Origin: Aquimarina spinulae
Lineage (GTDB): Bacteria > Bacteroidota > Bacteroidia > Flavobacteriales > Flavobacteriaceae
DNA length: 64,000 nucleotides
Assembly (NCBI RefSeq): GCF_943373825.1
Contig: NZ_CALSBP010000003.1
Location: forward strand, 310,001-374,000
Direction of reading: 5' to 3'
Made by a program: the position numbers and the translations under genes. Shown here in pieces: positions 48,112 to 60,587 of the stretch; positions within the stretch are counted from its first letter, which is position 1; the number at the start of each line of letters is the position of its first letter. The notes under the pieces are model-generated. The model was not told the origin of the DNA, did not search any database, and saw nothing but the letters and a program-made list of their open reading frames with translations.

Positions 48112-48132
48112 ATTTTTGTAATAAAACATTTA

Positions 48133-48162
48133 AAATCCCGACTATATAGTCGGGATTTTTTT
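48133..48162 (+). terminator. Rho-independent terminator after the OmpA-family gene
   Basis: AAATCCCGACTATA pairs with its mirror across 48133-48158, with T-tract to 48162. It separates the OmpA gene from the biosynthetic cluster that begins at 48177. Confidence 0.88.
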
Positions 48163-48176
48163 ATGCTTAATTTTTA

Positions 48177-49322
48177 ATGTATCTTCAATACTTGGACACG
48201 TATTCACACATAATAATCATTGGCGGAGGGCTTGCCGGACTAACCAATGCTATTCACTTAGCTAAGGCAGGTATTCCTGTTACACTTGTCGAAATGAACA
48301 CGTATCCAAAACACAAAGTATGTGGCGAATATATATCTAATGAAGTACTACCATATTTTGAATTTTTAGATATAGATATCAATGCTTTACAGCCTACCAG
48401 AATTTCAAAATTCATTATAAGTACACAAAAAGGAAAATGTATACAAAGTACATTGCCTTTAGGAGGTTTTGGAGTTAGTAGATATGCTCTTGATCATTAC
48501 CTATGGAAAAAAGCAGCGGAGGCAGGAGTACAGCTAATACAAGATCAGGTAACCGATGTACATTATCACAATAATCGTTTCCAAATTAAAACAGCGGGCG
48601 ATCGTGTCCTAACCAGTGATTATGTTATTGGTGCATATGGAAAACGGACTCAACTTGATAAAACTTTAAAACGAGATTTTAGTTATAGAAAATCTCCCTG
48701 GTTGGCTGTTAAGGCTCACTATAAGGCTGATTTTGATTCAAATACAGTCTCGTTACATAATTTTGAAGGAGGATACTGTGGTCTTTCTATGGTAGAAAAC
48801 AACATCGTAAATGTATGTTATTTGGCTACTTATGACAGTTTTAAAAAATATAAAGATCTAGATAGCTTTCAAAAGGAGGTTCTGTGTAAGAACCCACATT
48901 TAAGTACATTCTTTAAGAAAGCCGAATCATTATTTGATATTCCTATTACGATAAGTCAGATAAATTTTGATAAGAAAAACCCTGTTGAAGATCACGTTTT
49001 TATGACCGGAGATGCTGCTGGTTTAATTCACCCCCTTTGTGGTAATGGTATGGCAATGGCAATACAAAGTGCTCAGATACTTAGCGAACTACTAATACAT
49101 AATTATAATCAGGGTTTAATAACTCCCCGAAAAATAATAGAAATAGAATACACCAAACAATGGAATAAAGCATTTTCTAAAAGATTGTATACCGGTAGAG
49201 CATTACAAAAAATCTTATTAAATGATAGATTACAACAGCTTTCTTACACAATAACTAATATTATACCAGCTATTGTACCCAGAATTATAAAACAAACCCA
49301 TGGAGAGCCTTTGATATGTTAG
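48177..49322 (+). CDS. FAD-dependent oxidoreductase, geranylgeranyl-reductase/hydroxylase-like
   Basis: 381 aa. Dinucleotide-binding motif GGGLAGL starts at 16; a VCGEYIS segment near 44; and a second FAD motif MTGDAAGLIHPLCGNGMAMA near 278. This resembles the group that includes geranylgeranyl reductases, tryptophan halogenase relatives and lipid/aromatic oxidases. No membrane helix. First gene of the polyketide cluster: it overlaps the methyltransferase by 7 bp. A role in oxidising or reducing the polyketide product is likely; the direction of the redox step is not shown. Confidence 0.88.
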   Translation: MYLQYLDTYSHIIIIGGGLAGLTNAIHLAKAGIPVTLVEMNTYPKHKVCGEYISNEVLPYFEFLDIDINALQPTRISKFIISTQKGKCIQSTLPLGGFGVSRYALDHYLWKKAAEAGVQLIQDQVTDVHYHNNRFQIKTAGDRVLTSDYVIGAYGKRTQLDKTLKRDFSYRKSPWLAVKAHYKADFDSNTVSLHNFEGGYCGLSMVENNIVNVCYLATYDSFKKYKDLDSFQKEVLCKNPHLSTFFKKAESLFDIPITISQINFDKKNPVEDHVFMTGDAAGLIHPLCGNGMAMAIQSAQILSELLIHNYNQGLITPRKIIEIEYTKQWNKAFSKRLYTGRALQKILLNDRLQQLSYTITNIIPAIVPRIIKQTHGEPLIC

Positions 49323-50035
49323 CAAATTTACAATATAGGAGTAATGAGGTAGAACTCATGGATAATCCAGAGATTGAAGAAAAGGCTTTGCAAATAGCAT
49401 TATCCGATATTTCTAGAGTAAACAAATGGTTGGGAGGCAATGCAATTACTAGTAAGGCCGTACGCACTTTGGTTAAAAATCTTAATCCTTCACAAGAGAT
49501 TACAATTCTTGATTTAGGTTGTGGTGATGGTGAGATGTTAAGAGCAATTGCTGATTCATTCAGAAAAGAAAAAAAGAATATAAAACTCATAGGTATTGAT
49601 CTGAATAATAAATGCTTAGATTATGCTATCGAAACAAGTACTTCATATCCTGAAATATCCTTTTTTAACAAAAACATTTTAGAAATAGAAGCTTCAGAAT
49701 TTTCTTGTGACATCATTATTTGTACGTTAACATTACATCATCTTAGAGACGAGGAGATTAAAAAAATTATTAAAAAAGCTGTTAACCTGGCAAAAACTGC
49801 AGTGGTAATCAACGATCTTCATCGTAGTGCATTGGCATATTATCTTTTTAAGATGTTTAGCTTCTTTTTTATTAAAGGGTATGTAGCAAAAAATGACGGA
49901 TTGATTTCTATAAAAAGAGGATTCAAAAAACAAGAGTTGTTATATTTTGCTAAATCACTTCATCTACAAGAGTATAAAATAGATTGGAAATGGGCTTTCC
50001 GGTATCGGTGGATTATAAAAACTGCAAGTAAATAA
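49316..50035 (+). CDS. Class I SAM-dependent methyltransferase
   Basis: 239 aa. Motif I is ILDLGCGDGEML (about 62-73), the acidic end of strand 2 is GIDLN, and motif III is DIIICTLTLHHL. The fold is a standard Rossmann methyltransferase. It overlaps the preceding oxidoreductase gene and is 19 bp before the type III PKS, implying O- or C-methylation of the product, as the methyltransferase of the srsABC phenolic-lipid operon of Streptomyces does (analogy only). Confidence 0.9.
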   Translation: MLANLQYRSNEVELMDNPEIEEKALQIALSDISRVNKWLGGNAITSKAVRTLVKNLNPSQEITILDLGCGDGEMLRAIADSFRKEKKNIKLIGIDLNNKCLDYAIETSTSYPEISFFNKNILEIEASEFSCDIIICTLTLHHLRDEEIKKIIKKAVNLAKTAVVINDLHRSALAYYLFKMFSFFFIKGYVAKNDGLISIKRGFKKQELLYFAKSLHLQEYKIDWKWAFRYRWIIKTASK

Positions 50036-50054
50036 AATTAAAAAAGTAAGAAAA

Positions 50055-51107
50055 TTGAATGTAAAAATAACTGCTGTAACCAAACAACTCCCACAATACA
50101 TGCGGGAGACAAAGGAAATATTACCCTTTGTCTCTGAATGGTTATCAGGCCAGAATGAACGTTTCAGACGTAAGGTGATTAAGATTTTTGAAAATGCAGC
50201 AGTAGATCGGCGTTATGGGATCATGAGTATCGAAGAAGTATTTTCGGCAACTTCTTTTGAGGAGAAAAACGATATCTATATCAGAGAAGTAAAGAAATTA
50301 GGGACTTCTGTTTTAAAAAAAGCTTTAGAAAAAGTCGATTGGGATCCTAAATCTCTTGATTATATCATTACTGTAAGTTGTACGGGTATTATGATTCCTT
50401 CTATTGATGCATTTATTATTAATGATCTTAATCTTAAACAAGATATTGTGAGATTGCCTGTTACAGAAATGGGATGTGCAGCGGGTGTTTCGGGGATTAT
50501 TTATGCAAGAAACTTTCTGCAGGCTAATCCGGGAAAGAGAGCTGCGGTAATTGCCATAGAATCTCCTACGGCAACATTTCAGTTAGATGATTATAGCATG
50601 ACTAATATGGTAAGTGCTGCTATTTTTGGTGATGGAGCGGCGTGTACATTATTATCATCAGAAGAAGATGCTACAGGTCCAAAAATTATAGGAGACGAGA
50701 TGTATCATTTTTATGATGCAACAACAATGATGGGTTTTAAACTAACCAACGGAGGCTTGCAAATGATATTAGATCCTAAAGTACCAGAGACCATAGCGGC
50801 CCATTTTCCTAATGTTATCCATCCCTTCCTTGCAAAATATAACAAAACTATTGAAGAGGTAGATCATCTTATTTTTCATCCCGGTGGAAAAAAGATAGTA
50901 CAGACAGTAGAAGAACTTTTTGGACATTTAGGAAAGAATATTGAGGATACAAAAACTGTTCTGATGGAATACGGTAATATGAGTAGTGCTACTGTGTTGT
51001 ATGTATTAGAGCGATTCATAGAACAAAACCCGGAGCCAGGAGAAACAGGACTTATGCTTAGTTTTGGGCCAGGATTTTCTGCACAAAGAATATTGCTGGA
51101 ATGGTAA
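50055..51107 (+). CDS. Type III polyketide synthase (chalcone/stilbene-synthase-like)
   Basis: 350 aa from TTG at 50055; no ATG is available before the conserved region. The catalytic triad is Cys141 (in GCAAG), His275 (in FHPGG) and Asn308 (in YGNMSS). The GPG loop SFGPGFS near 338 is also present. The enzyme condenses malonyl-CoA onto a CoA or ACP starter, cyclising to pyrones or resorcinols. Placement next to a fatty-acid-type gene set points to a long-chain starter. Confidence 0.95.
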   Translation: MNVKITAVTKQLPQYMRETKEILPFVSEWLSGQNERFRRKVIKIFENAAVDRRYGIMSIEEVFSATSFEEKNDIYIREVKKLGTSVLKKALEKVDWDPKSLDYIITVSCTGIMIPSIDAFIINDLNLKQDIVRLPVTEMGCAAGVSGIIYARNFLQANPGKRAAVIAIESPTATFQLDDYSMTNMVSAAIFGDGAACTLLSSEEDATGPKIIGDEMYHFYDATTMMGFKLTNGGLQMILDPKVPETIAAHFPNVIHPFLAKYNKTIEEVDHLIFHPGGKKIVQTVEELFGHLGKNIEDTKTVLMEYGNMSSATVLYVLERFIEQNPEPGETGLMLSFGPGFSAQRILLEW

Positions 51108-51158
51108 AAAAGACTATTTTTCATTTCCGAGAAGGCGAAACTTTTTTAAATAAAACGT

Positions 51159-51950
51159 GTGAATAAAGATTTTATAGATAAAAATGAATGGGCACTCATC
51201 TTGGGTGGCAGTAGTGGTTTGGGCTTAGCCTCTGCCAAAAAACTAGCTTTACATGGCATGAATATTATCATTGTGCATCGCAATCGTAAAAGCGAAATGA
51301 ATCATATTGAAGCTGATTTTGAAACAATAAGAGAAATAGGAGTTGGTTTTCTTTCATTTAATATAGATCTTTTGAAACCAGAAAAACGAATAGAGGTTAT
51401 TGCCGAAATAAAAGATGCTATAGATGAAGGGCGCATAAAAACAATTGTACATAGCGTTGCAAAAGGAAATCTAAAGCCTATGATTGATGCCGAACATGTA
51501 TTAAAGAATGATGATTTTCATTTAACTATCGATGCTATGGCAATTAGTCTTTATGATTGGGTTACATCGATTTTTAAAGCAACGTTGTTTGCAGAGGATA
51601 CAAGAATTATTTCTTTTACCAGTGAAGGAAATACCAAGGCCTGGAGAAATTATGCAGCTGTTTCTGCTGCCAAAGTAGCCCTCGAAGCCATTACCAGAAG
51701 TATAGCGCTAGAATTTGCGCCTTACGGCATTAAAGCCAATTGCCTGCAACCTGGAGCAGTAGATACTCAATCATTACGAATGATCCCCGGTCATGAACAG
51801 ATTGTGGAGCATAGTATAAAGCGTAACCCGTTTAATCGAATTACAACACCAGAAGATGTAGCAAATGTAGTGTATTTGCTATGTAAAGAAGAAGCCTCCT
51901 GGATTAATGGTTGTCTAATACCTGTAAATGGAGGCGAACATTTAAACTAA
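51159..51950 (+). CDS. SDR reductase, FabL/FabI-like enoyl-reductase type
   Basis: 263 aa from GTG at 51159. The Rossmann motif reads GGSSGLG; the active-site Tyr165 and Lys172 are separated by six residues (Y-x6-K), which is the pattern of enoyl-ACP reductases (FabI, FabL), not the Y-x3-K of ketoreductases. VHSVAKGNLKP is also like the FabI VHSIA segment. It probably reduces enoyl-ACP in the cluster's fatty-acid line. A ketoreductase role cannot be excluded. Confidence 0.85.
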   Translation: MNKDFIDKNEWALILGGSSGLGLASAKKLALHGMNIIIVHRNRKSEMNHIEADFETIREIGVGFLSFNIDLLKPEKRIEVIAEIKDAIDEGRIKTIVHSVAKGNLKPMIDAEHVLKNDDFHLTIDAMAISLYDWVTSIFKATLFAEDTRIISFTSEGNTKAWRNYAAVSAAKVALEAITRSIALEFAPYGIKANCLQPGAVDTQSLRMIPGHEQIVEHSIKRNPFNRITTPEDVANVVYLLCKEEASWINGCLIPVNGGEHLN

Positions 51951-51964
51951 TTATAGAAATAGAT

Positions 51965-52447
51965 ATGAAAAACATGTTAATTCTGTGTCTCCCAATTATG
52001 CTTTACATTCTGTCTTGTAAAGAAGATAGTAATAATACAGGAGATGTAGTTACCGGCGCAGATGATAATAAAGCAGAGATTATCAGTGTCGAAGTAACAG
52101 GAGAAGAGGGTAAGTATTCTTTTAATGTTGGCATTAAGAGTCCGGACAAAGGCTGTAATCAATATGCAGATTGGTGGGAAGTTATTTCTGAAGATGGAGA
52201 ATTGTTTTATAGAAGAATTTTAGGGCATAGCCATGTGAGTGAGCAACCTTTTGTACGATCAGGCGGGCCAGTTCCTATTAAAAAAGATCAAATAGTATAT
52301 GTGCGTGCACATATGAACACAAGCAAATATGGTGATAAAGTGTTTAAAGGTAGTGTAGCTATAGGGTTTACAGAAAGTACTTTGGAGAGCGAATTTGCAG
52401 ATAATTTAGGAACAAAACAACCGCTTCCGAATGGATGCGCATTTTAA
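51965..52447 (+). CDS. Hypothetical lipoprotein inside the polyketide cluster
   Basis: 160 aa from ATG at 51965, which makes a lipoprotein signal (MKNMLILCLPIMLYILSC); an in-frame codon further upstream would spoil it. The mature part is polar, beta-rich, with CNQYADWWEV and HSHVSEQPF segments. I do not recognise it. It lies 14 bp after the reductase and overlaps the dehydratase gene by 17 bp, so it belongs to the operon. It may take part in transport or surface placement of the product (inference). Confidence 0.7.
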   Translation: MKNMLILCLPIMLYILSCKEDSNNTGDVVTGADDNKAEIISVEVTGEEGKYSFNVGIKSPDKGCNQYADWWEVISEDGELFYRRILGHSHVSEQPFVRSGGPVPIKKDQIVYVRAHMNTSKYGDKVFKGSVAIGFTESTLESEFADNLGTKQPLPNGCAF

Positions 52448-52898
52448 AACTCATTTAATTTTGATTATAGAAGATATTATACGAGAACTACCCTACAGCA
52501 AACCCTTTTTGTTTGTAGATGAAATTCTGGAGATTGATGATGATCATATAACAGGTAGTTATACATTTCTAAAGGATGAATATTTTTATGAGGGACATTT
52601 TAAAGACAATCCCATTACTCCTGGAGTAATACTTACCGAATGTATGGCTCAAATCGGGATGGCATGTTTTGGGATTTATCTTTTGAAAGGAGAATGGAGT
52701 AAGACCAATTTTGGAGTAGCAATGACCAGTAGTGATGTTAATTTTTACCACCCTGTTTATCCTGAAGAGAAAGTGACTGTAATTGCTACTAAAGAATATT
52801 TTAGATTTAATAAGTTAAAATGTAAGGTTGCTATGTATAATTCTGAGGACGTGTTGGTTGCTAAAGGAATTGTAGCAGGAGTAGCTTTTAAAAAATAA
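52431..52898 (+). CDS. FabZ-like 3-hydroxyacyl-ACP dehydratase
   Basis: 155 aa hotdog fold. Catalytic His56 and Glu70 lie in EGHFKDNPITPGVILTECMAQ-type context, which matches FabZ (HFP...PGVLIVEA). It dehydrates 3-hydroxyacyl-ACP. It overlaps the upstream lipoprotein gene by 17 bp and is three bases before the hydrolase. In the cluster it supplies the dehydration step of the acyl chain. Confidence 0.9.
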   Translation: MDAHFKTHLILIIEDIIRELPYSKPFLFVDEILEIDDDHITGSYTFLKDEYFYEGHFKDNPITPGVILTECMAQIGMACFGIYLLKGEWSKTNFGVAMTSSDVNFYHPVYPEEKVTVIATKEYFRFNKLKCKVAMYNSEDVLVAKGIVAGVAFKK

Positions 52899-52901
52899 AA
52901 G

Positions 52902-53804
52902 ATGAGTAGTATAGGATATTCGTTAGTGAAATTAGTACTTAGACTGAAAGGAGAAAAGAAATCCTGGTCTCAAGATCCTATTGAATACTATAAAAAAAGA
53001 AAACAAGATATACACACCCCTAATACAAAGCTTTTATTAGGTAGCACCTTTGAAACTAAAGAGGTATGCAATAGTAAAGTGACCAATATTGTCCCTAAAA
53101 ATACCAATACAGATTTTTTGTTATTGTATTGTCACGGAGGAGCCTTTGTTTATGGCCCTACTCGAGAAAATTGGATAGCAATCGCTAAGATCGCAAAACA
53201 AGCACATTCTCATGCCTGGATGGTAGATTACCCAAAAGCACCAGAAAACACTATTAAAATAATAACAGAAAACATATATCAAGTATATCTCGAAGCGATA
53301 AAAGCATACGATCCATCCAAAATCATTCTAATCGGTGATTCTGTAGGCGGGAATTTGATAATGACTCTTACGCAACGATTGCTAAAAGAAGAATCTAAAT
53401 TACCAAATAGGTTAATAGCGATTACACCAATGATGGATGCCAGCTTAACAAATCCAAAAATTAAGGAAATTGATTTGATAGATCCTATTCTTAGTGTGAA
53501 AGGAGTGAAATCTGCAAAGAAGATGTGTGCGGGTCAATCTTCGCTAAAAGATCAGATAATTTCCCCTGTATACGGTGATTTTGATAATTTTCCGCCAATA
53601 CACCTGTTTACTGCTACAAACGACATATGTAGTCCGGATCAAGAGGTGCTAATAGATAAAATAAAAGAGGCACAAGGTAAAATAGAAGTTATTAAAGGAA
53701 AAGGAATGCCACATATATGGCCAATACTACCTATACTATCTGAAGCTAAAATTGCTATAAAGAAAATAGTATCGATTATTAACTCAGCTATAAATAATGA
53801 ATAG
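52902..53804 (+). CDS. Alpha/beta hydrolase (HSL/esterase type)
   Basis: 300 aa. Oxyanion HGGA near residue 78 and nucleophile Ser147 in GDSVGGN match hormone-sensitive-lipase-type esterases; an Asp near 241 (TATNDIC) and His near 270 (GMPHIW) could complete the triad. No signal peptide. In this setting it may release or transfer the acyl chain, or act on the finished product. Overlaps the next gene by eight bases. Confidence 0.85.
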   Translation: MSSIGYSLVKLVLRLKGEKKSWSQDPIEYYKKRKQDIHTPNTKLLLGSTFETKEVCNSKVTNIVPKNTNTDFLLLYCHGGAFVYGPTRENWIAIAKIAKQAHSHAWMVDYPKAPENTIKIITENIYQVYLEAIKAYDPSKIILIGDSVGGNLIMTLTQRLLKEESKLPNRLIAITPMMDASLTNPKIKEIDLIDPILSVKGVKSAKKMCAGQSSLKDQIISPVYGDFDNFPPIHLFTATNDICSPDQEVLIDKIKEAQGKIEVIKGKGMPHIWPILPILSEAKIAIKKIVSIINSAINNE

Positions 53805-55071
53805 AAGGCGCGTAGTTATAACAGGTTTAGGTGTGGTTGCTCCAAATGGAACGAACGTTTCAATTTTTGAAAAGCATATTCGTGATGGAGTAAGCGGTAT
53901 ACAGTATATGGCTAAATTAAATCATCTTAATTTTTCTTGTCAAATAGCTGGTTTTCCAATATATAGTAAAGATTATTTAAATAATTACTTTAACCCTATT
54001 CTACAACGAGGATTAAATGCTTCTGGTATGGAATATGGAGTTATTGCTGGTATTGATGCTTGGAAAGATTCCAAGTTACCTATCAATGATTCTGAAACAC
54101 CACTTTGGGATGCTGGTGTTATTTTTGGAACCGGAATATTGGGTGTAGATAAATTTCGAGAAGCTATTTATAAAGTAGACGAAGGTAAAGTAAGAAGGTT
54201 GGGTAGTACCACAGTTGTTCAAACTATGGCCAGTGGTATAAGTGCTTTTTTAGGAGGTATGTTGGGATGCGGAAATGTGGTTACTACTAATTCTTCGGCT
54301 TGTAGTACAGGTACCGAAGCTATTTTGATGGCTTATGACCGTATAAGCGATGGTAAAGCAGAAATCATTCTGGCGGGTAGTACAAATGATAGTGGGCCTT
54401 ATGTATGGGGAGGTTTTGATGCTATGCGTATTCTTCCATATAAGTATAATGATAATCCTACCAGTGCTTCGCGCCCTATGAGTGCTACAGCTAGTGGTTT
54501 TGTTCCTGGGAGTGGAGCAGGAGCTTTGGTTATCGAAAGCCTGGATAGTGCCCAAAAAAGAGGAGCTACAATTTATGCAGAAATTTTGGGAGGGCATGTA
54601 AATAGTGGTGGGCAACGTAAAGGAGGGAGTATGACAGCTCCTAATAGCGAAGCGGTACAGCATTGTATTCGTAAAGCGGTAGCGGATGCAGGAATAGATC
54701 CGGGAGAAATAGATGCAATCAATGGTCATCTAACTGCTACAACGATGGATAGTGTCGAAATACAAAATTGGTGCATCGCCTTAGGACGAAAGGGGCAGGG
54801 TTTTCCATATATCAATTCACTTAAGAGTATGGTAGGGCATTGCTTGGCAGCTTCTGGTAGTATAGAAAGCGTAGCAACTGTATTGCAATTAAAAGAGGAC
54901 TTCATCTTTGGGAATATAAATTGTGAAGATTTACACCCCGAAATAGAAAATTTGGTATCCAGGGATCGAATTCCTACCAAAACATTTGACTATTCTCCCA
55001 AGATTATTGCAAAAGCTAGTTTTGGATTTGGAGATGTAAACGCTTGCGTTATCTTTAAGAAATACACATAA
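53797..55071 (+). CDS. Beta-ketoacyl-ACP synthase
   Basis: 424 aa condensing enzyme of the FabF/FabB fold. Active site Cys169 (SSACSTG), His311 and His348 (KSMVGHC, with Lys343) are in place. The first His motif is NGHLTATTMD instead of the common NAHGTSTP, a recognisable departure. It extends acyl-ACP with malonyl-ACP. It overlaps the hydrolase by eight bases and precedes an ACP by 41 bp. Confidence 0.92.
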   Translation: MNRRRVVITGLGVVAPNGTNVSIFEKHIRDGVSGIQYMAKLNHLNFSCQIAGFPIYSKDYLNNYFNPILQRGLNASGMEYGVIAGIDAWKDSKLPINDSETPLWDAGVIFGTGILGVDKFREAIYKVDEGKVRRLGSTTVVQTMASGISAFLGGMLGCGNVVTTNSSACSTGTEAILMAYDRISDGKAEIILAGSTNDSGPYVWGGFDAMRILPYKYNDNPTSASRPMSATASGFVPGSGAGALVIESLDSAQKRGATIYAEILGGHVNSGGQRKGGSMTAPNSEAVQHCIRKAVADAGIDPGEIDAINGHLTATTMDSVEIQNWCIALGRKGQGFPYINSLKSMVGHCLAASGSIESVATVLQLKEDFIFGNINCEDLHPEIENLVSRDRIPTKTFDYSPKIIAKASFGFGDVNACVIFKKYT

Positions 55072-55112
55072 AATAGTATTAAAATAAGTATTGAATCAAC
55101 TCAAATTAGATT

Positions 55113-55367
55113 ATGACAAAAAAAGAATTACTTTCTAAATTAAAAACAATCATAACGCCGTATGTGCAAAATGAAGAAGGGCTTGATACCCTTACCGAAA
55201 ACACTGATTTTATAAAAGATCTGGAAATTAATTCTGCAAATCTGGTAGATGTAGTACTTGATGTTGAAGATGAATTCGATATTGAGATTGATAATGAATC
55301 GATGGAGAAAATGTTAACTATTAAGGCTTCAATTGCTGTAATAGAAGATAAATTAGCGTCCAAATGA
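55113..55367 (+). CDS. Acyl carrier protein
   Basis: 84 aa, acidic, four-helix ACP. The phosphopantetheine-bearing Ser41 sits in LEINSANLVDVV, a variant of the usual DSL motif (NSA). It overlaps the next gene by four bases, a phosphopantetheinyl transferase that should activate it. It is the dedicated carrier for the cluster's acyl chain. Confidence 0.93.
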   Translation: MTKKELLSKLKTIITPYVQNEEGLDTLTENTDFIKDLEINSANLVDVVLDVEDEFDIEIDNESMEKMLTIKASIAVIEDKLASK

Positions 55368-55906
55368 TCGGTAATGATATTGTAGATCTTCAATTGGCCA
55401 AAGCCCAGAGTAACTGGCAGAGAAGAGGGTGGCTTCAAAAAATATTTACAATTCAGGAACAACAGTATATTTTTGCTTCAGAAAAAATAGAATTGCAGCT
55501 CTGGCAGTTTTGGAGTATGAAAGAGGCGGCATATAAAGCTCACCAGAGGCGATTTAATCTTTCTCGCAGGTATAACCCCCAAAATTTTGAATGTACACCA
55601 AATAGAGAGGTTTATGTGGGTAATTACAGTTATAAAACACGTACAGAGACGCAAAATGAATATGTATATAGCATTGCAATGGTATCTGATGTAGGTTATC
55701 ACTCTTCAGTATATGATAAAGCAATGAATATACGTTCTAAGTTAAAAGAAACAATTTCTAAAAAACTAAATATAGATTCGTCTCTCATTTATTTTACTAA
55801 AGATAGTAGAGGAATTCCGATAGTAAATATCAACCAAACAACAATGCAATTGCCAATATCTATAACACACCACGGAAAATACTCGGCATTTGTCGTTTCA
55901 GTTTAA
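55364..55906 (+). CDS. 4'-phosphopantetheinyl transferase
   Basis: 180 aa. Begins with GNDIVDL (metal-binding Asp) and has WSMKEAAYKAH near 52, the two diagnostic motifs of the AcpS/Sfp superfamily. It loads CoA's phosphopantetheine arm onto the adjacent ACP. It is the last gene of the cluster; no strong terminator is seen before the convergent gene. Confidence 0.92.
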   Translation: MIGNDIVDLQLAKAQSNWQRRGWLQKIFTIQEQQYIFASEKIELQLWQFWSMKEAAYKAHQRRFNLSRRYNPQNFECTPNREVYVGNYSYKTRTETQNEYVYSIAMVSDVGYHSSVYDKAMNIRSKLKETISKKLNIDSSLIYFTKDSRGIPIVNINQTTMQLPISITHHGKYSAFVVSV

Positions 55907-55993: not shown

Positions 55994-56542
55994 TTACTGA
56001 TAAAATTTACCCATATCACACCATTTATCCCGTTCTTTTTTATCAAAAAAGAGGGTTAATTGTGGAAATCCTAATATTGGATCGGTGTCCTTATCAATAA
56101 TTTTGATAGCAGCCATACTTACATCTTTTTCATTCCTGAAATGCAGTTCTACATCATGAGGGTAATCTGTATTCGATTTTGGGTTTCCAAGTGTAAGTTT
56201 ACTTTTATAAATAAGCTTCCAGTTTAAAAAAACCGATGTTATTTCCTCTCCAAGATAGGGCTGCCAATGAAGTGATGCATCATATATCTTTTTAAAGTAT
56301 TTCTTTTCTCTTTCCCAATACCTGATTCTCTTAATATATACACCTTGTAAAAATCCAAGTTTTAATTCATCTGCGGTATAGATGTGAAATACCTCACCAT
56401 CGGTACACTGTATAAAAATTCCTTCCTGTATCGCATGATACGTTGTATTGATACTAAACACACCTTTGTACCACACTTTCTTAATAGTGGTATGTTTCAA
56501 AGCCAAAAAAGCAATTTCGAGATCTGTTTTAACCTTACTCAT
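55994..56542 (-). CDS. Hypothetical protein overlapping the WGR-LRR-DUF4132 gene
   Basis: 182 aa, soluble, no signal peptide. It has repeated aromatic strands (VWYKGVFSINTTYHA, RIRYWEREKKYF) and a C-terminal FDKKERDKW segment. I do not recognise it. Its start overlaps the upstream giant gene by eight bases, so it is translationally coupled and probably a partner of that protein. Confidence 0.7.
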   Translation of the reverse strand: MSKVKTDLEIAFLALKHTTIKKVWYKGVFSINTTYHAIQEGIFIQCTDGEVFHIYTADELKLGFLQGVYIKRIRYWEREKKYFKKIYDASLHWQPYLGEEITSVFLNWKLIYKSKLTLGNPKSNTDYPHDVELHFRNEKDVSMAAIKIIDKDTDPILGFPQLTLFFDKKERDKWCDMGKFYQ

Positions 56543-59500
56543 CAGGTTCCATTATAAATCTGATATCTGCCAAAGCTTCAGAATATACAATTGGTGGTAC
56601 ATCTTTAAAAGGTATTAATCTTTTATCTGTTGCCGATGCAGGGTTGTCATAAACATAACTCCCGGTTTGCACAGCATCTTTAACTACAAAATAAAATGCT
56701 CCTGAATCCATATTCTCTTGATAACTTTCTCTAACCGGAAGATGATTGGTATCTATAAAAGCATCGATGTTATCTGCAGAAAATGTTTTCTTATACGAAG
56801 TTACACCACCACCGTCTGTTACAGATCCTCTTTTCCAGCCTTTTTTCATCACTCGGTATCTAAAAATACTTACTTGTTGGTGTTTTTCGGTAAATATTTT
56901 GGATAGAGTTGTTTCTTTATGGTCTTCTGTGAGTTTTTCAATAGTTCTTTCTAATTGTTTAAAAGTTGATGTAATATTTTTAGTATTAAAATACGCTAAC
57001 CAACTTTTGGTAAGATCTACACCTAAAAGTAAGGGGTGTGCTAACATTATTTTATCGGTATCTTTTAGTAAAATGGTGTTAGAATATACATCTGCAAAAG
57101 AACCATCTTCGAGAACAATGAAACTTTCTTGGGTATCATTCTTAACCCACACAGAACTTTGAGAAAAGGCAAAAGCAACGGGATTCTCCATAAAAAATAC
57201 TTTCCAGTCGGCTGCGGGCCAATGTCGTTGTGTAACCAAATGCATCTCCATCGACTGTGCGAATTGTTTTGCTACATCATTAAGTATTTTTGTTTTTTCT
57301 TTTATAACTTTCTTAAAATCAGCAGAAGCTTTAGGTATTGTTTGTATAATTTTTCCTGTATCATTTCTAAATTTAAATTGAAGATTTACATCAATGAGCA
57401 TAGTGTACGTTGCTCTGCCTTCATGTATCTGTAGTTCGCGACCAGAAAAATCAAAATCAGGAATCATACGTTCTTGCAATTCAAGGAAGGTTAGATCCAA
57501 ATGATCAGCAATGGTTATAAGAGCTTCCTCTGCCGTTGCAGCAACACTATATCTATCACGGTATTTTTTCATGATTTTATCTAGTACCAGTGCAGCATCA
57601 TATGAACTCATAAGGCCAAGTAATTCACAAGCAGCATCACTTCGTTTTTTTAATCCTTCTTCTCCCAAAACCTTAAGTATATCGGCTCCTCCAAAAAGTC
57701 CTATTGCAGCAAAAGCAGGTCTGTTTTTGGCAACTAATCCTTTATTTTTCTGTATCTTATACCATACTACAGTAGCAAATTCCTGGGATTTTCTTTTGTC
57801 TACAAGTAGATACAATGGTAAGGCTTCAATATCTGGTTCTATAGTATTACTACACTTTTGTTTATAAAAGATATAGTCTATTTCTTTTTTTGTAAACTTA
57901 GAACCATCAGCCCAATAAAGAGCCGGAAGTTTGTTTGTCCAGGTAAATACTGGTTTTTCAAGTTTACCCAACGCCTGCATGTCTTTAATTCTATTCTTCA
58001 TTTCTAGAATAGTAACAGTACTTGGATTTTGCTCTTTATAAACAAGTTCTATTACAATCCCACGTATAGTATCATTTTTCTCGGTTTTAAGTAATTCTGA
58101 AAAGAGAGTACCTAATGCAATATTTTTTTGTTTGTCTTCCAAACATAGTAAAGCTTTAACCGCTATTAGTCTATCTGCGTCTTTTTTGGATTTCAACAAT
58201 TGTAAAGCTTCATTTATGATAGTGGTATTCTGATACAATCGAGATAACTCCAGGGAAGCCATTTTTGAGATACTTTCATTTTTTGCCTTTACAAGTTGCC
58301 ATACCTTTTGGTGATACTTAGCATAGTCTATTTTACTAATAATCTTAAAAAGATATCTAAAATGTTCTTCAGAACGTGAACTATCAGGATTTATGTTTAG
58401 CGCCTCTCCAACAATGTCTACAGCGTCCTGACCAAAATGTTGTATTGCTATTCTTGTGATATTAAGATCGATCACTTTTACATTTTTAACATACTCAAAA
58501 ACAGTATCCTTAAGCTCTAATCCAAATAATTCTAATGCCCAATCAATAAATTCTGGTGTGCAATCAAAATACCGACGACCTAATGACCATGAAAATTTAA
58601 AACTTGTATCATTTTTCTTTTCTGCAGAGATGATCTTTAGTGTTTCCTGCACTTTTATAAATGTTTCTGCTTGGTATTTTTCTTTGGCATGGTAGATCAA
58701 TATTCGATAGCATTCCATAATGCACTCATGACAATCTGTTTGCTGTAATAAATCATGAATATAATGTTCATATGATTCGAAATCAAAATCACATAATATC
58801 TCCAGTAAATAGAAGGGGATATGACGTTTTGCTCCACCAGAACCTTTATACTCCCCAATACATAGAAGTTTAGAGAGGTGAATATCTAGTAATGCCCTAT
58901 CATTTTTTAGCATGAAAGAGATAAACGGAGTTCGTATACCATATGTAATTACCTGATCAAAAACAGAATTAGCATCCTCTTCTAATCTTGCCAAAAGGTA
59001 TCTGCCAACAGAGTTTGGGGTTTCATTAGAGAGGTTAAACGAAGTTTCGGAAGACATTTCTGATAAAAAAGCAGAAAAGGATGTTTGCTCATTAATCCCT
59101 ACAGTTGCTAAACGTTCTAGTATTGCGCTAAACAAATCCTGATCTGGTTGTTCTTTCTCTAATTGAGGAATAAACCATTTAGAGAAAAAATCTTCATGGT
59201 AGCCTCTATATGAAGGCCCATCAATAAAACGGTTTTGTTTCTCAAAATAAAAGGCGTCCTGACTAATAAAACACAGGATTCTGCAATCGATAAAATTCCA
59301 ATCAGTAATAGGAGCAAGAAGGGTAATAATAGGTTCATGATCACGATAATTACTTCTCTTTGCTTTTGGTAATTCATCAGATTCACCTAGTATAAATTTT
59401 TGTAATACCTCTACATTAGTCTGTTCACTTTCATAAACATCATCCTTTATCTCATCAAAAACTTCGGTTATTTTATCTAATCTTTCTGAAACTAGTTCGG

Positions 59501-60587
59501 ATTTATTAGCTGGGACTTCTGGGATATTGATTATTTTCTCTTCTTTCTCTTCTTTGGATAAAAATTCTCTAATCCCTGAAATATTTATAAAAAAACTACT
59601 CCCAATAATATCCTTCGGAATATTCTTAATATTATCTATCTCTATTTCAAAATCTTCTAATTCGGTAAGATTGACAAATTCCTTTGGGATTGCAGTTATT
59701 TTTTTACAGTAATCCAATTCTAATGTTTCTAAAGCGTCTAACTCACAAATGCTGAGCGGAAAATGATCAAAGTGGTTTACATTAAGTTTTAATTCTGTAA
59801 GATTTTTAAGCTTTCCGATTTCTGTAGGCAAAGCGGTTAAACAATTTCCTGACAGGTCGAGTGATTCTAAAGCTGTTAAATCTCCTATTTCTTTTGAAAT
59901 TATTGGTGCTTGAGGAAGCGGAGCTCCATAGGTTTCTGTTCTGTTACTCTTAAAAACTAACAATTTTAGTTGCGATAATTTACCGATCGATACGGGTAAT
60001 CCTTCAATATTAGGAAGGCCATCTAACTTTAATATAGTTAATTTAGAAAGTTGATCTATTTTAGATATACTAGAATAATTAGCACTTCTTATAGATAGTT
60101 CCTCTAAATTTTTGAGTTCCATAATAGTATCAGGAATCTTGACTTTTTGAAAATAATCACCTTCTATATCAAGTATCCTTAAATTTGTTAAGTTTCCTAT
60201 TTCTTTAGGAATATTATCTTCAAATCCACTTATTCGTAATTCTTCTAATCCTGTACATTTACAAATTAGCGGAAGCAATCTTTGATCTCTTTTTTCAAAC
60301 ACATTTTCGGTTAAATCCAGAGTTTTACTATTTCCGTGTAATGCCTGTTGGACTTTAAACAAAGTATCGGGTTCTACACCGGGAATATGAAGTGTAAGTT
60401 CGGTATATCCTCCTTTTATTTTTGATTTTACAGCTTTTTCGGCTTCTTTTTTGCATTTTTCTTCAGACTCAAAATCTTTCTTATTTGTGCGTAGTGTGTT
60501 TCCAATACCCCCATAAACTACTTTATAAGATGTACCACTAGTTTCTATTTTCCAGATTTTGGTATCATTAACCAATTGTTTTTTCAT
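56535..60587 (-). CDS. WGR-LRR-DUF4132 protein (MolR-like)
   Basis: 1350 aa, no signal peptide. The first ~65 residues form a WGR-like domain with the VYGGIGN core. Residues ~70-345 carry about ten leucine-rich repeats (for example SLDLSGNCLTALPTEIGKLK). A long helical HEAT-like section reaches ~950, and the C-terminal ~350 residues match DUF4132, as in MolR. The role is not established for the family; WGR domains elsewhere bind DNA ends and the LRR part suggests a protein interaction. Its only partner in sight is the small overlapping gene. CAAATATA at 60623-60630 could be the minus-strand -7 box. Confidence 0.85.
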   Translation of the reverse strand: MKKQLVNDTKIWKIETSGTSYKVVYGGIGNTLRTNKKDFESEEKCKKEAEKAVKSKIKGGYTELTLHIPGVEPDTLFKVQQALHGNSKTLDLTENVFEKRDQRLLPLICKCTGLEELRISGFEDNIPKEIGNLTNLRILDIEGDYFQKVKIPDTIMELKNLEELSIRSANYSSISKIDQLSKLTILKLDGLPNIEGLPVSIGKLSQLKLLVFKSNRTETYGAPLPQAPIISKEIGDLTALESLDLSGNCLTALPTEIGKLKNLTELKLNVNHFDHFPLSICELDALETLELDYCKKITAIPKEFVNLTELEDFEIEIDNIKNIPKDIIGSSFFINISGIREFLSKEEKEEKIINIPEVPANKSELVSERLDKITEVFDEIKDDVYESEQTNVEVLQKFILGESDELPKAKRSNYRDHEPIITLLAPITDWNFIDCRILCFISQDAFYFEKQNRFIDGPSYRGYHEDFFSKWFIPQLEKEQPDQDLFSAILERLATVGINEQTSFSAFLSEMSSETSFNLSNETPNSVGRYLLARLEEDANSVFDQVITYGIRTPFISFMLKNDRALLDIHLSKLLCIGEYKGSGGAKRHIPFYLLEILCDFDFESYEHYIHDLLQQTDCHECIMECYRILIYHAKEKYQAETFIKVQETLKIISAEKKNDTSFKFSWSLGRRYFDCTPEFIDWALELFGLELKDTVFEYVKNVKVIDLNITRIAIQHFGQDAVDIVGEALNINPDSSRSEEHFRYLFKIISKIDYAKYHQKVWQLVKAKNESISKMASLELSRLYQNTTIINEALQLLKSKKDADRLIAVKALLCLEDKQKNIALGTLFSELLKTEKNDTIRGIVIELVYKEQNPSTVTILEMKNRIKDMQALGKLEKPVFTWTNKLPALYWADGSKFTKKEIDYIFYKQKCSNTIEPDIEALPLYLLVDKRKSQEFATVVWYKIQKNKGLVAKNRPAFAAIGLFGGADILKVLGEEGLKKRSDAACELLGLMSSYDAALVLDKIMKKYRDRYSVAATAEEALITIADHLDLTFLELQERMIPDFDFSGRELQIHEGRATYTMLIDVNLQFKFRNDTGKIIQTIPKASADFKKVIKEKTKILNDVAKQFAQSMEMHLVTQRHWPAADWKVFFMENPVAFAFSQSSVWVKNDTQESFIVLEDGSFADVYSNTILLKDTDKIMLAHPLLLGVDLTKSWLAYFNTKNITSTFKQLERTIEKLTEDHKETTLSKIFTEKHQQVSIFRYRVMKKGWKRGSVTDGGGVTSYKKTFSADNIDAFIDTNHLPVRESYQENMDSGAFYFVVKDAVQTGSYVYDNPASATDKRLIPFKDVPPIVYSEALADIRFIMEPDE

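Follow-up and report, generated by a model that had tools for sequence, protein, structure and literature searches.

A conserved operon of Flavobacteriaceae that joins a distinct type III polyketide synthase to fatty-acid-type chain-building enzymes

What does a type III polyketide synthase (PKS) make when it is encoded among the enzymes of a fatty-acid-type assembly line? This question is raised by a 64,000-nucleotide stretch of the genome of Aquimarina spinulae (positions 310,001 to 374,000 of contig NZ_CALSBP010000003.1, RefSeq assembly GCF_943373825.1), hereafter referred to as the window, in which ten open reading frames (ORFs), all on the + strand and located at 48177-55906, overlap or lie at most 51 bp apart. 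Type III PKS clusters account for 10.74% (PMC10734526) or 9% (PMC7440613) of the clusters predicted in Flavobacteriaceae, and such a cluster is present in every Aquimarina genome of a study that calls the products likely novel (PMC9323603); the passages of the literature that we examined give no product for flavobacterial type III PKS clusters. A first reading of the window, made from the sequence alone, had taken the ten genes for a type III PKS welded to a dedicated type II fatty-acid line. As far as our searches show, the operon is real, conserved and uncharacterised, and is a variant of type III PKS clusters that carry their own chain-building enzymes.

The core of this operon consists of six genes. 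They encode an enzyme dependent on flavin adenine dinucleotide (FAD), probably a ring hydroxylase (48177..49322; FAD_binding_3, 57.8 bits above cut-off, with the QhpG and GG-reductase models under their cut-offs), a class I methyltransferase dependent on S-adenosylmethionine (49316..50035; Pfam Methyltransf_25), the type III PKS itself (50055..51107), a FabZ-like dehydratase (52431..52898; a FabA-like Pfam family), a beta-ketoacyl synthase (KS) that is FabF-like but diverged (53797..55071; ketoacyl-synt) and an acyl carrier protein (ACP; 55113..55367; PP-binding). Two further genes are facultative, namely a short-chain dehydrogenase/reductase (SDR) of the enoyl-ACP reductase (FabL-like) type with a Y-x6-K motif (51159..51950; Pfam adh_short_C2) and a phosphopantetheinyl transferase (PPTase; 55364..55906; ACPS). 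The remaining two, a predicted lipoprotein (51965..52447) and an alpha/beta hydrolase of the hormone-sensitive-lipase type (52902..53804; Abhydrolase_3), are additions of Aquimarina outside the core. The coordinates agree with ten real, co-directional and tightly packed genes, and the names given to them in the sequence-only reading match the Pfam families of nine; for the lipoprotein, no Pfam or NCBIfam family was found.

We compared the operon with 144 loci, comprising 59 from Flavobacteriaceae, five from a search of the phylum (two of them likewise Flavobacteriaceae) and the best 80 of 264 named loci. The 59 were drawn from 142 family genomes with the PKS, and 60 family and 40 phylum-search loci were fetched; four of the 144 duplicate others, leaving 140 distinct loci, and residue counts out of 145 include the window. 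All six core genes were found in 137 of the 144 loci, and because they keep strand and order in 137 out of 137, their grouping is not due to chance. Co-conservation of the type II genes with the PKS, on which the sequence-only reading had staked its proposal beforehand, thus holds in every complete locus. Individually, the FAD enzyme is present in 142 loci, the methyltransferase in 143, the dehydratase in 142, the KS in 138 and the ACP in 137, and six of the seven loci with an incomplete core (L136, L137, L138, L166, L192 and L194) have short flanks. What had been described as a ten-gene unit is therefore retained as a six-gene core with a facultative SDR (105/144) and PPTase (89/144). The PPTase is accordingly set aside as a defining part, and so are the lipoprotein (29/144) and the hydrolase (20/144) as working core parts, both of which are lineage-specific.

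Of 397 Flavobacteriaceae genomes, 142 encode a PKS at least 58% identical to that of the window, and a 143rd has only a 28% identical protein as its match. In a sample of 395 genomes from the phylum, 33 encode a PKS of at least 64% identity, three of them outside Flavobacteriaceae (G472, G524 and G631). The nearest named relatives, among the best 80 of the 264 loci, come from Aquimarina sp. AU58 (98%), A. macrocephali (97%) and A. atlantica (96%). Six named loci of Chitinophaga contain the eight genes from the FAD enzyme through the PPTase, without lipoprotein and hydrolase, which suggests that these eight genes are probably a mobile unit. Within the family, the position of the operon appears to be long-held, since 42 of the 59 loci have, at an equal distance, a gene resembling the OmpA-type gene that precedes it in the window. 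Plasmid carriage was considered and rejected: 226 records matched among 72,556 plasmid records, none with an identity of 60% or more. In one genome (G150), the PKS appears as two adjoining matches (G150:C1:841123-842162) and may be broken or misassembled.

The PKS is a member of the type III PKS superfamily, with both the N- and the C-terminal Chal_sti_synt models above cut-off and the predicted triad Cys141-His275-Asn308 invariant in 145 out of 145 sequences. It is, at the same time, marked by Pro171 and Phe228, which are equally invariant (145/145), and by Ser170 (131) and Ala173 (141). In 40 comparison PKSs, comprising 25 lone PKSs and ten from the triads described below, all from Bacteroidota, and five plasmid-borne ones from other phyla, position 171 is Cys in 40 and position 228 is Trp in 39. 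Five solved reference enzymes lie outside this set and have Cys (PKS11, THNS and PKS18), Ser (CylI) or Thr (EnPKS2) at position 171; L091, a lone PKS, was left out of both the 25 and the operon counts. In the alignment, the Pro171 column corresponds to a Cys of PKS18, which is Phe in entry 1tee and which we take to have a role in the acyl tunnel. The Phe228 column, placed onto the operon PKS through PKS11, is the site of a Trp that is tied to resorcinol formation in ArsB and listed for FtpA, SrsA, PKS10 and PKS11 (PMC5916927). We read these altered tunnel and cyclisation-pocket residues as a putative adaptation to an unusual ACP-bound chain, and Pro171 and Phe228 offer direct handles for testing how starters are chosen and how the ring is closed.

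The partners of the PKS have likewise kept their catalytic residues: His56 and Glu70 of the dehydratase (143/143), Cys169, His311, Lys343 and His348 of the KS (139/139), Ser41 of the ACP (138/138) and, as the sequence-only reading had it, the Y-x6-K motif of the SDR (Tyr165 and Lys172, 106/106). Here, too, there are departures that run through the whole clade. The serine of the ACP is preceded by Asn40 in all 138 sequences, giving Asn-Ser in place of Asp-Ser, while five other ACPs of the same genome, which has 28 carrier-domain matches, have D-S in four cases and E-S in one. The KS reaches 277 bits against the fabF model, under its cut-off of 494, and has Leu312 (138/139) and a GFGDVN loop with Asp413 and Val414 (139/139) where the FabF of the genome has HGT and GFGG; conversely, that FabF scores 240 bits against a model of the operon KS, compared with 727-794 for named operon members. 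By sequence and model scores, the KS and ACP form a pair that differs from the AcpP-FabF pair encoded at another site of the genome, in agreement with the dedicated line claimed earlier. The same genome also contains a large modular PKS region (G000:C2:3206000-3283000), where ORFs of 1273-6158 residues give 15 KS matches, as well as two further clusters in which KS, ACP, dehydratase and SDR are encoded by discrete genes (L214 and L215).

A PKS with a changed active site in a conserved operon makes a phenolic or pyrone lipid the probable product. We consider the odds to be somewhat in favor of the operon making such an aromatic lipid by means of a dedicated type II set that primes the PKS, with the resulting ring then methylated and hydroxylated. 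The KS, the dehydratase and the ACP, joined in some lineages by the enoyl-reductase-like SDR, would build a particular acyl chain on their own ACP, assisted by a housekeeping ketoreductase and malonyl transferase. The PKS would take the ACP-bound chain as its starter, add malonyl units and close the ring, which the methyltransferase would methylate and the FAD enzyme hydroxylate. The transfer from ACP to PKS, the order of the steps, the type of ring and the product are what we infer. This proposal is supported by the constant core order, the invariant catalytic residues, the apparent transfer of the eight genes as a block into the six named Chitinophaga loci, the distinct KS and ACP, and the coherent departures of PKS, ACP and KS across the clade, as well as by a PKS that lies outside the triad lineage although the FAD enzyme and the methyltransferase are related to those of triads. 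By analogy, the type III PKSs of Azotobacter, which are flanked by a dedicated fatty acid synthase (FAS)/PKS supplying their starters, offer an established precedent (PMC3098273). If the proposal is true, roughly a third of Flavobacteriaceae genomes (142/397) share a single conserved operon that makes an aromatic lipid, and its type III PKS is coupled to discrete type II enzymes, as opposed to the type I proteins of the dedicated couplings in the literature that we examined (ars, paracyclophanes).

Several points weigh against this proposal. The donation of a chain from the ACP to the PKS is itself an inferred step. The operon contains neither a ketoreductase nor a malonyl transferase, its sole SDR being of the Y-x6-K enoyl-reductase type, so that a complete dedicated line is not established; moreover, 39 of 143 cases (142 loci with the dehydratase, plus the window) lack the SDR, and 55 of the 144 loci lack the PPTase. 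The claim that the PKS has an acyl-ACP assembly line of its own therefore stands only for KS, dehydratase and ACP: the type II line is partial, and help from elsewhere in the genome, which has 13 further SDR matches, must be assumed. One locus (L083) yielded no dehydratase, KS or ACP gene despite a stretch of 18 kb. The meaning of Phe228 is clouded by the variation among solved enzymes, which have Trp (PKS11), Tyr (THNS), Leu (CylI and PKS18) or Gly (EnPKS2) at this position. Finally, planctomycetal type III PKSs produce alkylresorcinols when expressed in a foreign host, with no dedicated line to feed them (PMC10896814).

Phe228 bears most directly on the kind of ring. The guess of the sequence-only reading that an alkylresorcinol might be formed is weakened by the replacement of the resorcinol-linked Trp in all 145 sequences; such a product is possible, given that CylI has Leu there, but not favored, and the ring may equally be a triketide pyrone or of another kind. 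With the same coupling, the PKS might stop at the triketide and release an alkyl or alkenyl alpha-pyrone that is O-methylated, while the FAD enzyme oxidizes the ring or the side chain. A docking-based argument holds that Tyr at this very position limits the product to triketide pyrones (PMC5916927), but it concerns Tyr rather than Phe, with no experiment on the operon PKS family, and PKS11, an alpha-pyrone enzyme by the title of its PDB entry, keeps the Trp. As a ring hydroxylase would also be a better partner for a phenol, we regard this pyrone reading as unlikely, albeit the most probable of the rival explanations.

Another possibility is that there is no coupling at all, and that the PKS uses housekeeping acyl-CoA or acyl-ACP while the KS, the dehydratase and the ACP make another product under a shared promoter. 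The planctomycetal enzymes work in such an independent manner, and the evidence for the coupling proposed here is indirect; nevertheless, the six genes stay together in all complete loci, and PKS, KS and ACP each show changes throughout the clade, so that we find this explanation improbable. The order of the two systems could also be reversed. DpgA-type PKSs make a thioester from malonyl units, and DpgA is the best NCBIfam model for the operon PKS (174.6 bits), which might thus make an aromatic or malonyl-primed starter for KS, dehydratase and ACP to extend into an aryl-acyl chain. However, this score is far under the cut-off of 425, whereby identity with DpgA was rejected, and PKS11 scores as well among the solved chains (177.6 bits; CylI is the fourth-listed solved match, with 135 bits). 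No enzyme for loading from CoA to ACP was recognized in the operon by Pfam and NCBIfam scans, and the reversed order seems to us more doubtful still.

Where, then, do the parts of the operon come from? In ten loci of other Bacteroidota (L122-L131), a type III PKS, a class I methyltransferase and a FAD enzyme stand side by side as they do in the operon; KS, ACP or dehydratase genes were not recognized in the stretches of these triads. Six of the triads have a FAD enzyme clearly related to that of the window (36-44% identity), with methyltransferases of 30-35% identity, whereas their PKSs, with Cys171 and Trp228, are only 25-29% identical; the FAD enzymes of the remaining four are only distantly alike to the window's. 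By comparison, one of the six (L131) is 40-51% (FAD enzyme), 34-54% (methyltransferase) and 41-51% (PKS) identical to the other five. In our first tree, the operon PKSs fall outside the triad PKSs, and the approximately unbiased (AU) test rejects a joint group (p = 2.1e-6), a group that was chosen for testing after the first tree had been seen. The tree used for the test comprises 11 operon rows, ten triad rows, 19 rows of lone PKSs, among them L091, and three solved enzymes, with EnPKS2, L115 and six lone rows left out. The first tree groups the operon PKSs with THNS and L091 at a weak 92/58, and since THNS has a Tyr with a role in malonyl priming where the operon clade has Phe228, a naphthol synthase of the THNS/RppA type, primed with malonyl, is the least probable of the explanations that we considered. 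L091 itself comes from a Flavobacteriaceae genome without the operon PKS (G072), is a 28% identical relative and groups with THNS at 100/100.

We read these relationships as pointing to a FAD enzyme-methyltransferase pair that was kept while its PKS was exchanged and a type II set was added; very fast change of the PKS, rather than exchange, would be the alternative. As a more far-reaching and tentative version, to which we give a clearly less than even chance, a distinct Pro171/Phe228 subfamily was swapped into the old pair and rebuilt to accept chains directly from its own Asn-Ser ACP, repeated gain or loss of the enoyl reductase decides between a saturated chain and a polyene, and the product is an undescribed class of aromatic lipids in about a third of Flavobacteriaceae. 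In L131, a UbiA-type prenyltransferase gene (L131:6821-7684) precedes the triad, which suggests prenylated products; L125 and L127 have ORFs of 287 and 289 residues, similar in size, in its place.

Characterized systems share some, but not all, of these features. The srsABC operon of Streptomyces griseus combines a type III PKS with a methyltransferase and a flavoprotein, is not known to have a type II set, and includes SrsB, a methyltransferase of the ICMT type. The operon shares this three-gene content, but its methyltransferase belongs to class I (Methyltransf_25). Furthermore, where the operon PKS has Phe228, SrsA carries a Trp (PMC5916927). The suggestion that the operon is simply srsABC content with an added line is not borne out in that form: the relatives found for its FAD enzyme and methyltransferase are in the Bacteroidota triads, and its PKS lies outside even the triad lineage. 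The planctomycetal and hierridin (hidABC) operons resemble the triads, a likeness that concerns gene content, not protein comparison. Like the ars system of Azotobacter vinelandii, the operon has fatty-acid-type enzymes (KS, dehydratase and ACP) beside its PKS; the ars line, however, is an iterative type I FAS/PKS, whereas here we find discrete single-domain proteins and no ketoreductase. Similarly, CylI of the cyanobacterial (7.7)paracyclophane clusters is a type III PKS fed by a dedicated polyketide line (PMC8086630), but this line is of type I, and CylI groups with PKS11 and L109 (100/98), apart from the operon clade. Lastly, lone type III PKSs that we checked (L099 and L107) and plasmid loci (L235-L237) adjoin a methyltransferase, albeit one of the ICMT family, and neither a FAD enzyme nor a type II set was recognized (L099 and L107) or annotated (L235-L237) there. 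Among the matches listed, and with most subscription journals outside coverage, we recognized no paper that describes this gene set, in line with the sequence-only reading, which knew of no characterized cluster with exactly this content.

The facultative genes have their own history. On a quick tree of the PKS, at least nine changes are required for the SDR, six for the PPTase, three for the lipoprotein and seven for the hydrolase. When compared with solved structures, the SDR best matches the sequence of the enoyl-ACP reductase 3oic (105.9 bits), and it reaches 157 bits against the NCBIfam FabL model, under the cut-off of 328. The core is thus constant where the reductase is variable; should the reductase act during chain growth, differences in chain saturation would be expected between related species. 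By eye, its place between PKS and dehydratase is taken by a 153-residue transposase-like ORF in Polaribacter septentrionalilitoris (L195) and by protease-like ORFs of 368-377 residues in two Aquimarina (L151 and L153). In loci without PPTase among L038-L079 (e.g. L044, L050 and L065), a conserved membrane protein of ~143 residues directly follows the ACP; one copy was scanned and matched no Pfam family. Outside Aquimarina, the lipoprotein occurs in six genomes of six genera among the 149 searched, the genome of the window being the seventh; in those six it is always on a different contig from the PKS.

In the window, the FAD enzyme and methyltransferase, lipoprotein and dehydratase, hydrolase and KS, and ACP and PPTase genes overlap, while the other gaps include 19 bp between methyltransferase and PKS, 51 bp between PKS and SDR, 3 bp between dehydratase and hydrolase and 41 bp between KS and ACP; the lipoprotein most likely starts with the ATG at 51965, 14 bp past the SDR stop. 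A terminator-like element, read from the sequence as a palindrome followed by a T run (48132..48163), separates the operon from the OmpA-like gene and lies only 14 bp upstream of the ATG of the first operon gene. A scan of the + strand for TAnnTTTG between 47001 and 49400 returned a single site, located within the FAD enzyme gene. Beyond the operon, a convergent gene on the minus strand (56535-60587) encodes a 1350-residue protein in which stretches resembling leucine-rich repeats can be seen by eye.

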